The position numbers and the translations under genes are program-made. A stretch of DNA of 64,000 bases, taken from assembly GCF_001887355.1 (NCBI RefSeq), contig NZ_MPIN01000001.1:372001-436000 (forward strand), written 5' to 3'. This stretch comes from Cystobacter ferrugineus (lineage in GTDB: Bacteria > Myxococcota > Myxococcia > Myxococcales > Myxococcaceae). Below are positions 3,192 through 58,279 of the stretch, piece after piece. How positions within the stretch are numbered: the stretch's first letter is position 1; each line of letters starts with the position of its first letter. A model generated the notes under the pieces. It ran no database searches, was not told the DNA's origin, and worked only from the letters and a program-made list of their open reading frames with translations.

Positions 3192-4303
3192 GGAACGAGA
3201 GCGACTCCAGGTTCTTCGCCGCACCCCGCCCCCTCCCGGCTCGCGCGCCCGCGCGGCCTCGGCTGGATTCGCGGCACCTGCCGTTCATGGTCACCCTGGG
3301 ACTGTTCGGGGTGATGTTCGGCGCGGGCTCGATCGCGTTCGACGGCTTCTTCTCCCTCCAGGTCTTCCTCAACCTGTTCATCGACAACGCCTTCCTGCTG
3401 ATCGCCGCGGTCGGGATGACCTTCGTCATCATCTCCGGCGGCATCGACCTGTCGGTGGGCTCGGTGACCGCGCTCACCACCATGGTGTTGGCATACCTCG
3501 TCGAGAACCGGGGCTGGAGCCCCGCGCTGGTCATCCCGCTGGTCCTGTTGATGGGCGCCACCATCGGACTGATCCATGGGTTCGTCATCCAGTACTTCTC
3601 GCTCCAACCCTTCATCGTCACCCTGGCGGGCATGTTCCTCGCCCGGGGGCTCTGCTACCTCATCAGCGTCGACTCGATCGCCATCTCCCATCCCTTCTTC
3701 ACCGACATCTCCGCGATCCGCTATCCCCTGCCCTTCGAGACCTCCGTCTCCGTCAATGTCGTCATGGCGCTGGGGGTCCTGCTCGGAGCGGTGTACCTGG
3801 CGCACTCCACGCGCCTGGGGCGGACGCTGTATGCCATTGGCGGCAGTGAGCAGTCCGCCCTGCTGATGGGCCTGCCGGTCGCGCGGACGAAGATCTTCGT
3901 CTACACGTTCAGTGGTTTCTGTTCCGCCCTGGCGGGCATCGCCTTCACCTTCTACATGCTCTCTGGCTACGGGTTGCACGCGCAGGGAATGGAGATGGAT
4001 GCCATCGCGGCGGTGGTGGTGGGGGGGACCCTGCTCACGGGCGGCGCGGGCCATGTCCTGGGCACCCTGGTCGGAGTGTTGATCTACGGCACCATCCAGA
4101 CCCTCATCATGTTCGAGGGCAGCCTCAGCTCCTGGTGGACGAAGATCGTCATTGGCCTGCTGCTGCTCGTCTTCTGCCTGCTGCAGAAGGTGCTGGCCAG
4201 AGCGCCCGCGCGCCAGGGGTCCACCCGCGCGGCCCGGCAGGACACCGCGCAGCCCCACTCCATCTCCTCCCCCATCGAGCAGACCGCCCAGGCGGGCGGG
4301 TAA
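3188..4303 (+). CDS. Sugar ABC transporter permease (YjfF-like)
   Basis: This second permease has 371 residues and begins at a GTG overlapping the previous stop (GTGA). It is the YjfF-type partner: the membrane-family motif VIISGGIDLSVGSVTALTT is near residue 80, followed by FSLQPFIVTLAGMF and AIAAVVVGGTLLTGGAG. About 35 polar residues precede the first membrane segment, and the tail beyond the last segment is Ala/Pro/Gln-rich. Two different permeases with one double ATPase is the YtfQRT-YjfF arrangement, known in E. coli for furanose sugars. A methionine at residue 34 is an alternative start, but the overlap favours the GTG. Confidence 0.9.
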   Translation: MRNESDSRFFAAPRPLPARAPARPRLDSRHLPFMVTLGLFGVMFGAGSIAFDGFFSLQVFLNLFIDNAFLLIAAVGMTFVIISGGIDLSVGSVTALTTMVLAYLVENRGWSPALVIPLVLLMGATIGLIHGFVIQYFSLQPFIVTLAGMFLARGLCYLISVDSIAISHPFFTDISAIRYPLPFETSVSVNVVMALGVLLGAVYLAHSTRLGRTLYAIGGSEQSALLMGLPVARTKIFVYTFSGFCSALAGIAFTFYMLSGYGLHAQGMEMDAIAAVVVGGTLLTGGAGHVLGTLVGVLIYGTIQTLIMFEGSLSSWWTKIVIGLLLLVFCLLQKVLARAPARQGSTRAARQDTAQPHSISSPIEQTAQAGG

Positions 4304-54737: not shown

Positions 54738-55309
54738 GGGTTCTCCTCGGGGCAGACCCAACCTTCGTAGGACAGCAGCCGGCCCAGCAGTGGCGCTCCG
54801 ATGCGCACGTGCACGCGCATTCCCTCCGGGGCGTCGAGGGCCTCGGCCTCGATGCGGGGCGCGAGCAGGCGGGGCAGTCTCAGGCTCCATCCACCGAGGC
54901 ACACCCAGGCGCCCACCTGCTCGTAGTGCAGGCCCTGGCCCTCGACGCGCAAGCGGAAGACGCACGCCACGGCGCCGAGCCGCTCCGCGAGCAGCTCCCC
55001 GGGCCAGACGTGTTGGCTCGTGACGAGCGCATGGCCGCCGAAGGCGCGCTCCCAGAACCAGGTAGCGCCCTCGCGCCGGACCACGAGCCGGGTGGGCACG
55101 TCCTCTCCCGCGGGGGGCAGCCGCAAGAGCCATCCCATCAGGGCGGCGAGGAGGCCCGGGGCCCGGCGCACGTGGAAGCGCCCGTGGGCGAGGCCCTCGG
55201 AGTGGAGCTGGCGCACCCGGGGGGGCAGCCGTTGCCAGTCCGGGCCCAGCAGTTGGGCGTAGAGCGAGGGCGGCGGGAGTACCTCGGGGACGGCGGGTGC
55301 GGCGATCAT
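54734..55309 (-). CDS. DUF4166-domain protein
   Basis: This 191-residue protein starts MIAAPAVPEVLPPPSLYAQL with GGGAGG upstream. It contains LGPDWQRLPPRVRQLHSEG, GLLAALMGWLLRLPPAGEDV and TRLVVRREGATWFWERAFGG, the DUF4166 pattern (also fused in NAD-dependent epimerases or saccharopine-dehydrogenase-like proteins). It is cytosolic apart from one modest hydrophobic segment. It is first of three overlapping genes with two membrane proteins. Function unknown. Confidence 0.75.
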   Translation of the reverse strand: MIAAPAVPEVLPPPSLYAQLLGPDWQRLPPRVRQLHSEGLAHGRFHVRRAPGLLAALMGWLLRLPPAGEDVPTRLVVRREGATWFWERAFGGHALVTSQHVWPGELLAERLGAVACVFRLRVEGQGLHYEQVGAWVCLGGWSLRLPRLLAPRIEAEALDAPEGMRVHVRIGAPLLGRLLSYEGWVCPEENP

Positions 55310-55431
55310 GGAACCTCCCCCCTCGGAAGGCCCGCGCGGGTGCCCGCGTGGTCGAGTTCCTGGTCGAAGCCGTCGTCGGTGGCCGCCTTCTCGAGGCGCG
55401 AGACGATGATGGGCGACAGAGCCGTCGTCAC
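55306..55431 (-). pseudogene. Short remnant, likely N-terminus of a nuclease-associated gene
   Basis: A GTG overlapping the DUF1016 stop (GTGA) opens a 41-residue frame: VTTALSPIIVSRLEKAATDD then GFDQELDHAGTRAGLPRGEV. Its start pattern (LSP.VVSRLEKAA.DNGFD) resembles the N-terminus of HNH endonuclease-like proteins in similar contexts, but the rest is missing. It ends by overlapping the DUF4166 start. Read as a truncated gene whose body was deleted; this is inference from a short match. Confidence 0.4.
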
Positions 55432-56435
55432 TTCTTGCGCCCCTTGCGTTTGGGCGTCGCGCCGCGCGTCGGGGCGATGTCGAACGCGGCGTCGACGCCG
55501 ACCTCCAGCACGAGCCGGTTCCGCGCTGCCTCGATGGCACGGTGCAGGCGTTCCTCGAGCACCTCACGAGGGGGCAGCTCCGTCAGGTACTCGGCGACGT
55601 GTATGCCCAGGAGGTCGAGGTAGTAGTCATCGCCGTCGAGCGTGATGCGCTTCTGCCGCTCGACGAAGGCGAATCCCGCTCCCAGCTCAAGGAGGAAGCG
55701 TTCGATCTCGCGGAGGATCGCCGACTCGAGGTCCTTCTCGCTGTACGTGTCGGCGAGCTCAAGGAAGTCGAGCATGTATGGGTCGCGGAACACGAGCGCT
55801 GGCGAGAGTTCACCCTTCTCGCGCAGCGCGGAGAGCTCCTTGCGGATGAGCGCCTCCGGCTTCTTGGAGAGCGCCGTGCGCTCGAACAGCATGCCGTCGA
55901 TGCGCTCGGCGAGGGCGCGCGTCGACCACCCTTCCACCCTGCACATCTCGGCATAGAAGGTCCGCTTCAGCTCGTCCTCCATGTAGATGAGCTGCTTGAA
56001 GTGGCTCCACGACAATTGTCTCCGCAGTGCGGAGACAATCTCCGCGCTGGGGAATGCGCGCGCGAACCGGATCATGTGCCGAAGGCTCTTCTCGCCGAAG
56101 CCGCGTCCGTAGCGCGCCTCCAATTGTCTCCCCACCGCGGAGACAATCTGGGCCCCGTACTCCGCGCGGCGCTCTTCGAGTACCTCCGTGTGGACGCGCT
56201 GGCCGATCTGCCAGTAGAGCCCCATCAGCGCGGCGTTCGCGGTGACCGACACCTGCTTGCGCGCGGCGTCGATCATCGCACCGATGTCGCGCACGAGCCC
56301 CACCACGTCGGCCTCGATCTGGGCGCCGGACACAGGGGTGGCCTTCTCGATGGCGGTGCTTGGCGATTGTCGCAGCGGCGCTGCGACTTTCTTCGAGCCG
56401 ACCGTCCTGGGCATCTTGCTCGGGCGCTTCGTCAT
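55428..56435 (-). CDS. DUF1016 (YhcG-type) protein lacking the nuclease core
   Basis: This 335-residue protein keeps the N-terminal DUF1016 helices (ALMGLYWQIGQRVHTEVLEE, IRFARAFPSAEIVSALRRQL, SWSHFKQLIYMEDELKRTFY) and the start of the C-terminal PDDEXK-type domain (GAGFAFVERQKRITLDGDDY, YLDLL). At residue 276 it jumps to GIHVAEYLTELPPREVLEER, which in homologues lies after the catalytic ExK strands. About 60 residues with those strands are missing while the frame stays open. It is therefore probably nuclease-dead. The gene also carries three palindromic segments. It may belong to a defunct restriction-like module with the remnant downstream. Confidence 0.8.
   Translation of the reverse strand: MTKRPSKMPRTVGSKKVAAPLRQSPSTAIEKATPVSGAQIEADVVGLVRDIGAMIDAARKQVSVTANAALMGLYWQIGQRVHTEVLEERRAEYGAQIVSAVGRQLEARYGRGFGEKSLRHMIRFARAFPSAEIVSALRRQLSWSHFKQLIYMEDELKRTFYAEMCRVEGWSTRALAERIDGMLFERTALSKKPEALIRKELSALREKGELSPALVFRDPYMLDFLELADTYSEKDLESAILREIERFLLELGAGFAFVERQKRITLDGDDYYLDLLGIHVAEYLTELPPREVLEERLHRAIEAARNRLVLEVGVDAAFDIAPTRGATPKRKGRKK
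56015..56039. repeat. Intragenic palindrome 1 in the DUF1016 gene
   Basis: ATTGTCTCCGC (56015-56025), a three-base loop and its complement to 56039; encodes part of EIVSALRRQL on the minus strand. Confidence 0.7.
56123..56147. repeat. Intragenic palindrome 2 in the DUF1016 gene
   Basis: ATTGTCTCC and its complement, 9-bp arms with seven-base loop; encodes QIVSAVGRQL on the minus strand. Same length and outer arms as palindrome 1. Confidence 0.7.
56369..56387. repeat. Intragenic palindrome 3 in the DUF1016 gene
   Basis: GTCGCAGC, GGC loop and its complement, 8-bp arms; preceded by GATT as in the other copies. Encodes VAAPLRQS near the N-terminus. Confidence 0.6.
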
Positions 56436-56461
56436 GGGTCCCGCCCCATGGGTTGGGAGGG

Positions 56462-58279
56462 CTAGCGGTTGAGCTGGTAGCGGCGGGCGATCTCCGTCAC
56501 TTCCCGGGTGACGGCCTGGAGCGTCTCGGTGGCCTGCAGCGTCGTGTCCAGGCGCTTCATCGTCTCGTCCATGCCGGAGGACAGGTGGGCGATGGCGTTG
56601 AAGATGTGGGTGATGCCCGCGTTCTGCTGGTTCACCGCGGCGGCGATCTGCCGCACGGCCGCGGCGTTCTCCTGGATGATGAGCGACATCTCGCGCAGGT
56701 TGTTGCCCGAGGTCCTCACGCGCTCGAGGCCGCCCTCGACCTGGAGGGCGCCCTGCTCGCTCATGGAGACCACGTCCCGGATGGCGGTGCCGATGTCCAG
56801 CAGGCTCTTGCGGATGAGGGCGTTCTCCCGGATGGTCTGATCGGCCAGCTTGCGGATCTCACTGGCGACCACGGCGAAGCCCGCGCCCTGGTCTCCCGCG
56901 CGTGCCGCCTCGATGGAGGCGTTGAGCGCGAGCAGGTGCGACTGGTCGGCCAGGTCCTTCACGGTGACGGCGATGTGGGCGATCTGCGTGGCGCTCTCCT
57001 GCAGGCGCAGCACCTTGCCGCGGATTCCATCCACGAAGTCGCCGATGGTGCTCAGGCCCATCAAGGTTCGCTCGAGGGCCTGTTCACCGTACTGGCCGAG
57101 CTGTTCGGCGTGGCCGGCGACGCTGAGCACGCTCTCGGCCTTGTGGGAGGCGAGCTCGGAGGTGGTGCGGATCTCCTCGGAGGTGAGCTGGGCCTGCTGG
57201 AGCACGGCGGCCTGTTCCGACAGGCGCTGGCGCTGCTGGTTGCTCGCGGCGCCGAGCCCGGTGCTCGCGGCGAGCAGCAGACTGGCCGAGGCCTGCAGGC
57301 GGGTGGGGATTTCCTGGAGCTTGTCCAGGGCGATGGTCATCTCGGTGGTGACATCGCCCAGCTCATCGGTGGAGGCCCAGGCGGGCGCCACGGGGGCTCC
57401 ATTGGCCAGTCCCTGGATGGCCTCCCGGAGCGCGGCGGTGGCCCGGGCCTGGCGCCTGGCCAGCATCCAGGTGGTGAACGTGGACATGACCAGGGCGAAC
57501 AGGCCCAGGGCGATCAGCGGCGGCCCCAGCAGGGACGCCTGGCTGTCGACGAAGCCTCCCAGGTGTCGGGCGATCCGCTCGGCCTGGGCCGCGGAGAGGG
57601 TCGGATCGTTGAGCAGCGCCTTCATCCGCTCATCGCGCAGCGCGAGGGTCTGCGTGACGAGCAGCAGGCTCATGATGATCATGGCGCTCACCACGACGGA
57701 GCCGATCGTGAAGGGCAGATGCCAGCTCTGGCGCATCCAGGCGGGGCCCTTGCTCTGGGTGCGCAGGCGCAGCCGATCCCGCTCCTTGAGCAGCGAGGGC
57801 ATCAACAGCGCCTCGATCTGCAGGGCGGCCGGCAGGGCCATCGCGTACCCCAGGGAGACGGCGATGAGGCACTCGGCCCCGAGCAGGAGCGGATCCTTGT
57901 GGAAGCGCACCAGGAGGATCAGGCTGAAGAGCAGACCTCCGAGGAGCTGACTGCCCTGGCCGGACAGCAACGACAGCTTCCAGGGCAGCTTGTACAGGCG
58001 CACGAGGTAGTCATGGGGCTCCTCTCCGGGGCGGGTGCCCAGGTTGCGCTGGAGCAGCGGAAACGAGATGAGCCAGGGAACGCCCACGGCCCCCAGCAGG
58101 ATGAAGAGGGGCAACAGGTAGCGCAGGCTCCAGGACATCTCCTCGGCCGACAACCCGAGCGACAGCGCGAACAGGTAGGCGGTGACGGGGGAGAAGAGAG
58201 CGCTCCACGTCGCCATGACGAGGAACACCCGGTGAGAAAGCTGCGGAGGGATGACCGTCTGCGGGTGTGAGCCGTTCAT
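56462..58279 (-). CDS. Methyl-accepting chemotaxis protein with multi-helix membrane sensor
   Basis: This 605-residue protein has an unusual N-terminal half: about six hydrophobic helices ([107 protein letters not shown]) with little periplasmic domain. A linker resembling HAMP ([20 protein letters not shown]) precedes a classical MCP signalling domain with the hairpin tip [20 protein letters not shown] and [20 protein letters not shown]. It probably signals to a Che-like pathway such as Frz or Dif-type in myxobacteria. No che gene is adjacent. Confidence 0.9.

Follow-up and report, generated by a model that had tools for sequence, protein, structure and literature searches.

A conserved palindrome within DUF1016/YhcG genes and a core-deleted copy in Cystobacter ferrugineus

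Here we describe a DUF1016/YhcG gene in a 64,000-nucleotide stretch of the Cystobacter ferrugineus genome (contig NZ_MPIN01000001.1; the whole stretch is called the window, and its positions are used throughout). The gene lacks the core of its PDDEXK nuclease domain, is followed by the stub of an HNH endonuclease gene, and contains 25-bp palindromes at codons where most of the bacterial and archaeal relatives examined contain them too. The gene break itself is real but ordinary. The interest of the locus is the conserved intragenic palindrome, which the preliminary description of this DNA did not mention. The genome is 12.05 Mb in size and its relatives mark it as myxobacterial. The gene order on the minus strand is an MCP gene (56462-58279), a 335-residue open frame (55428-56435), a 41-codon frame (55306-55431) and a DUF4166 gene.

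The core-deleted gene, its partner and related loci

The 335-residue protein belongs to the DUF1016/YhcG family (PF17761 and PF06250). Its DUF1016_N domain (residues 51-186; 55878-56285, minus strand) is complete in Pfam, with profile positions 2-137 of 137 matched at E 5.7e-43 and 146.7 bits against a cut-off of 32.8. The YhcG_C PDDEXK domain is incomplete. Only profile positions 3-68 of 157 are matched, by a remnant that together with the first residues beyond the gap occupies 55596-55793 of the minus strand. At the junction the protein reads ...GDDYYLDLL-GIHVAEYLTELPP..., and an alignment with 19 relatives places the gap exactly between YLDLL and GIHVAEY. The absent block extends from FFHRR to LDLDTR (68 residues, 204 bp in the relative L003) and contains IELK, the E-x-K motif, and GQ.ELY. 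The D of YLDLL is retained while IELK lies in the lost block, so the catalytic set is incomplete; D plus E-x-K are what we take to be the catalytic residues from general knowledge of the PD-(D/E)XK superfamily. The block is whole in 16 of the 19 relatives. It is also missing in L110, and the frames of L096 and L008 stop within it. The preliminary description had recognised a DUF1016 protein jumping from YLDLL past its catalytic segment at about 55607, and had proposed alignment with homologues and a search for intact versions; both bear it out, and the DNA comparison puts the break at 55608/55607 with 68 codons of the intact relatives gone.

The junction reads CTCCTG followed directly by GGCATA, clean and in frame, with at most about one base of microhomology when compared with the relatives. 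Deletion through long direct repeats was considered and rejected, as a nearby repeat resembling TACCTSGACCTC sits a few bases off the junction. A YhcG_C profile search of the genome matched this copy alone. The protein is gapped at 24 columns whose conservation across 41 other alignment members is 95% or more, and in the surviving part none of the 74 columns conserved at this level is altered (median of the relatives, 2), from which we infer that the break is probably recent. The lack of decay by point mutation fits a recent break or a retained N-terminal function alike. In AlphaFold models the block means of pLDDT are 77-95 for residues 41-190 of the window protein and 36-63 for residues 191-290, compared with 75-92 for residues 221-320 of the intact protein of L034. 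The closest intact relatives in the alignment, L033-L035, are 76-78% identical, and the best PADLOC match is PDC-S02 (E 5.9e-96). The PADLOC and PHROGs profiles take the function no further than 'candidate' or 'unknown', scans of viral contigs with E. coli YhcG and with the protein P0001 as queries returned no relatives, and a PDB sequence search with the alignment A2 gave nothing under E 0.6. The gene is a YhcG-type nuclease copy that has lost its cutting part, probably recently. It shares the complete DUF1016_N domain and the start of YhcG_C with the family but differs from it in the 68 missing residues and in its truncated partner.

This partner, described earlier as a 41-residue stub, is the beginning of an HNH_2 endonuclease gene. 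It extends from a GTG at 55431 to a stop at 55306 on the minus strand, overlaps the stop of the first gene in GTGA, and also reaches into the beginning of the DUF4166 gene. Identity to the N-termini of the HNH partners in L034 and L035 is 73-77% over the first 26-30 residues. Full-length HNH partners lie downstream of DUF1016 in L034, L035, L052 and L110, those of L034 and L110 being assigned to HNH_2 by Pfam. The two genes of a nuclease-type module have therefore both been cut, as had been suggested, with deletions in each. In A. violaceum the nuclease gene is kept, but the homology of the partner frame ceases about 11 residues in.

All four genomes of the genus that were examined have this locus, flanked by the MCP and DUF4166 genes. 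The congener G003 lacks a 711-bp segment (55349-56059), G002 carries two deletions of 187 and 643 bp that leave both module ends and a 102-bp piece, and G001 has about 30 bp in place of the module region (55271-56463). Three carriers with different deletions and one genome without the module indicate an eroding mobile module. Its shared part (56060-56435) differs between the window and G003 (L124) at 1 of 376 bases, while the flanks differ by 2.5% upstream and 5.6% downstream; between the window and G002, 4 of 178 shared bases differ. That the module is far less diverged than its flanks suggests arrival or exchange after the lineages parted. The dN/dS ratio against G003 is uninformative, the sole difference in 375 bases being nonsynonymous.

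Other core-less genes were also observed. A second DUF1016 gene without the nuclease core, followed by a full-length HNH gene, lies at 6001-6729 of L110; it has lost a larger piece of the C-terminal domain than the window gene and the stretch between the palindromes described below, so that one palindrome is left. Among 195 genomes of the phylum, 11 genes (at least 60% identity) gave separate matches on either side of the core. G154 resembles L110, and only fragments appear at this identity level in G002, G003, G067, G041 and G109. G148 and G152 each contain several DUF1016_N-like frames of about 280-306 residues that match only the N-terminal part of the query and are possibly natural nuclease-less forms.

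Palindromes in the window gene and across the family

Two 25-bp palindromes encode the two IVSAxxRQL copies of the window protein. Palindrome 1 (codons 97-105; 56123-56147) forms 10 of 12 pairs, and palindrome 2 (codons 133-141; 56015-56039), reading ATTGTCTCCGC-ACT-GCGGAGACAAT on the gene strand, forms all 12. The window gene also has a palindrome-like third site near its N-terminus (codons 16-24; 56366-56390; 10 of 12 pairs). The palindromes use codons that are rare in four neighbouring genes of this high-GC window: ATT encodes 1 of 76 Ile there, AGA none of 179 Arg and CAA 1 of 94 Gln. A dispersed host repeat was rejected, since with up to 3 mismatches palindrome 2 matches only itself and palindrome 1 in its own genome.

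For the family we collected 109 loci (L003-L111), excluded 6 with a frame below 280 residues, and obtained 105 sequences including the window and E. coli genes. Dereplication at 80% identity left 75 genes from bacteria and archaea, among them L052 with a frameshifted start. Each codon-phase position was scored for dyad symmetry (12 pairs around an odd centre), with 100 synonymous shuffles per gene as control. Only two of 1065 positions stand out. Position 2 (window codon 137) has at least 10 of 12 pairs in 65 of 73 genes where 0.32 are expected, and its mean is 10.51 against 5.08 shuffled (largest shuffle, 5.64). Position 1 (window codon 101) has as many pairs in 30 of 74 genes where 0.10 are expected (mean 6.64 against 3.89), and the third-best position has a mean of 5.89 against 5.72. 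As the shuffles keep the protein, amino-acid conservation is rejected as the sole cause. In whole genes, palindromes of at least 11 of 12 pairs occur in 55 of the 75 (64 sites), compared with an average of 0.36 and a maximum of 3 in the shuffles. Counted over the 73 of the 75 genes that lie in fetched loci, such sites number 61 within the genes (79.2 kb) and 27 within the flanks (541.6 kb), or 0.77 vs 0.05 per kb, and several of the 27 belong to other DUF1016 or RhuM genes or to the remainder of the frameshifted L052. Five HNH partner genes have no such palindrome. Each of the five archaeal records (L051, L081, L084, L099, L105) reaches 10 or more pairs at position 1 or position 2. In one of them, the archaeal metagenome-assembled genome L099, further ATTGTC...GACAAT-like palindromes lie before and behind the DUF1016 gene (2832, 2855, 4162), and an isolated RhuM-type palindrome lies behind it at 4073. 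Loci fetched later contained the palindrome in 10 of 11 cases, of which at most 7 are clean and new: the site, peptide and frame length of L170 equal those of L110, the second site of L168 equals L045, the site of L172 equals L015, and the match in L174 is not of the ATT...AAT type. The intragenic palindrome is conserved, and a function for it may be inferred.

The arms change while their symmetry is kept. In 63 distinct sites all 12 pairs vary on both sides, and the covariation score is 0.570, compared with 0.169 for shuffled and at most 0.155 for slid controls. There are 46 distinct left arms among 69 genes, and the changes alter the peptide (SALRR, AALLR, STLSR, YALSR, VTLSR, SALLT). At the outer bases the close group shows a strong preference for ATTGTC/GACAAT, and E. 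coli for ATT...AAT. Within a gene the two sites resemble each other more than sites from different genes do (7.5 vs 6.4 of 9; 0 of 2000 permutations, with phylogeny not removed). On the sense strand, at pairs 3-12 from the centre of both sites and with the amino-acid constraint included, G-U mismatches number 12 and A-C mismatches 13. With no excess of G-U over A-C, the constraint on symmetry seems to act on DNA rather than on mRNA.

RhuM genes (PF13310), which adjoin some DUF1016 genes, are also palindromic. A set of 34 RhuM genes was not dereplicated; the figures that follow are for 16 genes that passed length and identity filters. One codon position has at least 9 of 12 pairs in all 16 non-redundant genes, where 4.67 are expected, and its mean is 10.38 against 7.65 shuffled (largest of 100 shuffles, 8.31). 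RhuM thus resembles DUF1016 in having, at a single fixed codon position, a palindrome whose arms vary, but it is a separate Pfam family with a higher expectation and a small sample drawn mostly from one order, and the evidence is weaker than for DUF1016. The 25-bp palindromes lie at 2854 in L020, 5015 in L095, 10794 in L073, 7217 in L093, and in L128-L155, and encode peptides such as ATIRKFRIV, ATVSNLETV and SVVAETATT.

Palindromes within coding sequence are known from other systems. Rickettsia palindromic elements are described, in passages of PMC4316617, as selfish elements of about 100-150 nt that insert at many places. The DUF1016 palindromes share with them a palindromic DNA within coding sequence but are 25 bp long, occupy fixed codons of one family and have covarying arms, and window palindrome 2 is unmatched outside its gene in its own genome. 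Coding palindromes of up to 284 bp in the mitochondria of four nematomorph species likewise combine symmetry with functional protein (PMC6649704). No report of intragenic palindromes of DUF1016/yhcG was found in searches of open-licence PMC papers, and they go unmentioned in the passages on the family examined there. The main texts of two inverted-repeat surveys, one in E. coli (PMC6060812) and one in 118,019 genomes (PMC13155455), do not contain the word 'yhcG'.

E. coli yhcG and a predicted DNA-binding domain

E. coli K-12 has three palindromes within yhcG and two beside it, one of the latter about 28 bp beyond gltD and the other 28 bp beyond yhcG (L112, 645 and 8983). The gltF-yhcF block of K-12 sits between the gltD-side palindrome and yhcG. 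In the BL21 region (L158, 8.4 kb read) both outer palindromes are absent. Alleles differ by paired changes, with K-12 reading ATTCACCAGAC..., 118UI ATTCGCCAGAC... and E21 ATTGTGCAGAC..., the K-12 palindrome being one mismatch from perfect. The downstream palindrome matches in 4386 of 5426 genomes at 1-6 BLAST places each (median 3). For ER1709 four places are listed, and BLAST run locally on the 40 kb around its yhcG also gives four; the yhcG locus therefore accounts for all of them. The upstream palindrome matches at 1-4 places per genome. Its best place, taken in 60 records across the ranking, is a YhcG, PDDEXK nuclease or DUF1016 gene in 35 and unannotated DNA in 25, and it is no widely dispersed repeat.

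The yhcG gene itself matches in 4417 genomes, 3310 of them with one place covering at least 80% of the gene. Broken examples involve insertion sequence (IS) elements, a deletion or a frameshift, and two are broken at palindrome 3 (L158, L159). A domain exchange at this palindrome (382-406; breaks at nucleotides 385 and 406 of yhcG) was considered and dropped, as an IS1 transposase lies beside one break and another transposase gene beside the other. Palindrome 3 is at most a fragile site.

The DUF1016_N domain is a candidate reader of the palindromes. When the window model was compared with known structures by VIA-align, the 12 best rows were all Noc/ParB/Spo0J, with Z 7.8-6.0 over 94-104 residues, and Raf1 followed at 5.5. 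The ParB/Noc-like part of the model comprises residues 69-189 (55869-56231, minus strand). HTH_ParB is the most frequent non-self Pfam match, found in 9 of 42 family members at E up to 10 (best 0.0053). The matches from Foldseek by itself were weak, with a best E of 3e-3, and many were to PDDEXK nucleases. Passages of PMC7383237 describe a ParB/Noc domain that binds palindromic parS and NBS sites, a ParB co-crystal with two symmetric monomers, and a specificity that can be switched by four residues. From the predicted structures and weak sequence matches, DUF1016_N is thus predicted to be a ParB/Noc-like DNA-binding domain, and the simplest joint reading makes the palindromes in its own gene its putative binding sites. 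The likeness to ParB/Noc is one of predicted fold. In contrast to parS and NBS, the DUF1016 sites are 25 bp long with an odd centre and variable arms and lie inside the gene; the sequence homology is weak, and HTH_ParB is the only ParB family among the 15 Pfam families listed for the 42 members.

Competing explanations and significance

Taken together, we propose that the window holds a recently broken mobile DUF1016 and HNH module, of which a ParB/Noc-like N-terminal domain and the palindromes that it may bind survive. We put the probability of this explanation at roughly 0.5. The mobile module consists of a DUF1016/YhcG PDDEXK nuclease gene followed by an HNH endonuclease gene. The nuclease gene has lost its catalytic core through a 204-bp in-frame deletion, the HNH gene has lost most of its length through a second deletion, and the congeners lack other parts of the module. 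In the intact family, DUF1016_N would bind as a symmetric dimer to the palindromes that lie within and next to its gene, in the manner of ParB on parS and Noc on NBS, and this binding might control its own expression or mark self-DNA for the attached nuclease. The window copy would have lost its nuclease function and retain at most DNA binding. More tentatively, at somewhat less than an even chance, YhcG/DUF1016 proteins may be self-addressed nucleases, whose predicted ParB/Noc-like domain reads the palindromes of its own gene, with site and protein diverging together allele by allele.

Several observations weigh against this explanation. The upstream palindrome of E. coli is found in 5341 genomes, more than the 4417 that match K-12 yhcG, and plasmids carry two of its places; hence some copies are not linked to any recognisable yhcG. 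In the family, 4 of 73 genes score below 9 at position 2, and a palindrome lies within 200 bp upstream of the gene at two loci only (L051, L099). Arm sequences differ among close relatives, and within a gene from site to site, which is awkward for strict sequence recognition. As for the domain, the Noc rows of the intact model rank only 30th and 47th (Z 7.6 and 7.5), after nuclease matches with EndoMS best at 8.9, and VIA-align cautions that Z below 8 for a helical domain may reflect a common arrangement. A comparison of small DUF1016_N and ParB profiles by hhalign was not significant (0.9% probability, E 0.062), though in a sensible register. The undamaged N-terminal domain could also mean that the window copy still works.

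The palindromes might have no function if their arms corrected each other by template switching at replication and so changed together. This predicts compensatory changes on both strands without a G-U preference and similar arms within a gene. It leaves unexplained that only 2 of 1065 positions are affected, at the same codons across phyla, that the sites are 15-fold fewer in the flanks, and that the five HNH partner genes have none. We regard it as rather unlikely.

Selection might have preserved the truncated product as a DNA-binding protein without nuclease, either a repressor or dominant-negative against intact YhcG, but this seems doubtful. The deletion is in frame, the conserved columns of the surviving part are unchanged (0 of 74 against a median of 2), the N-terminal domain is still modelled confidently, L110 provides a second core-less gene beside a full-length HNH gene, and G148 and G152 encode N-terminal-only frames of about 280-306 residues. 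However, a recent break would be equally free of decay, the N-terminal domain has been destroyed in congeners too, the partner is a stub, and L110 has also lost the stretch between the palindromes. The preliminary description had seen the long open frame as a sign of selection as a non-nuclease; this is unsupported, given congeners with different deletions or no module and a one-in-three chance of staying in frame.

Recognition by shape is similarly improbable. Here the palindromes would form cruciforms or single-strand hairpins, perhaps recognised by the PDDEXK domain, which would agree with arms that vary while the symmetry stays (46 distinct left arms among 69 genes) and with the membership of the Holliday junction resolvase Hjc in the PD-(D/E)XK superfamily, as stated in passages of PMC1913061. 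The strong preference for outer bases speaks against it, though amino-acid constraint may be partly responsible, and the predicted fold of the N-terminal domain points toward sequence binding. Hairpins in mRNA are very unlikely: a stem of 11 bp with a three-base loop would be expected to be stable, but G-U is not favoured over A-C in the sense strand, and five loci, the window not included, gave no Rfam match at or above the gathering score. An assembly artefact, conceivable for a draft genome of 42 contigs judged without reads, can hardly account for the deletion, since the two sides of the junction join cleanly in frame, a search of the rest of the genome with the 68-residue core of L034 gave no relative (best E 0.96), and the congeners are deleted differently at the same place.

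The DUF1016/YhcG family is a candidate defence system in PADLOC by profile match, and no tested function was found in the literature examined. The palindromes offer a handle on this function: the family probably has a cis-acting DNA site, which is present in E. coli K-12. What they reveal looks like a constraint on the DNA of a coding region. It recurs at identical codons in different phyla and in records from archaea, and the paired changes in the arms also replace amino acids. If the constraint indeed acts on DNA, protein trees and profiles of DUF1016 would partly record a constraint on DNA and not on protein. If the proteins are self-addressing, the same principle would extend to RhuM as a second family, and the window copy would be a naturally occurring form without the nuclease, in which reader and sites have both been kept.

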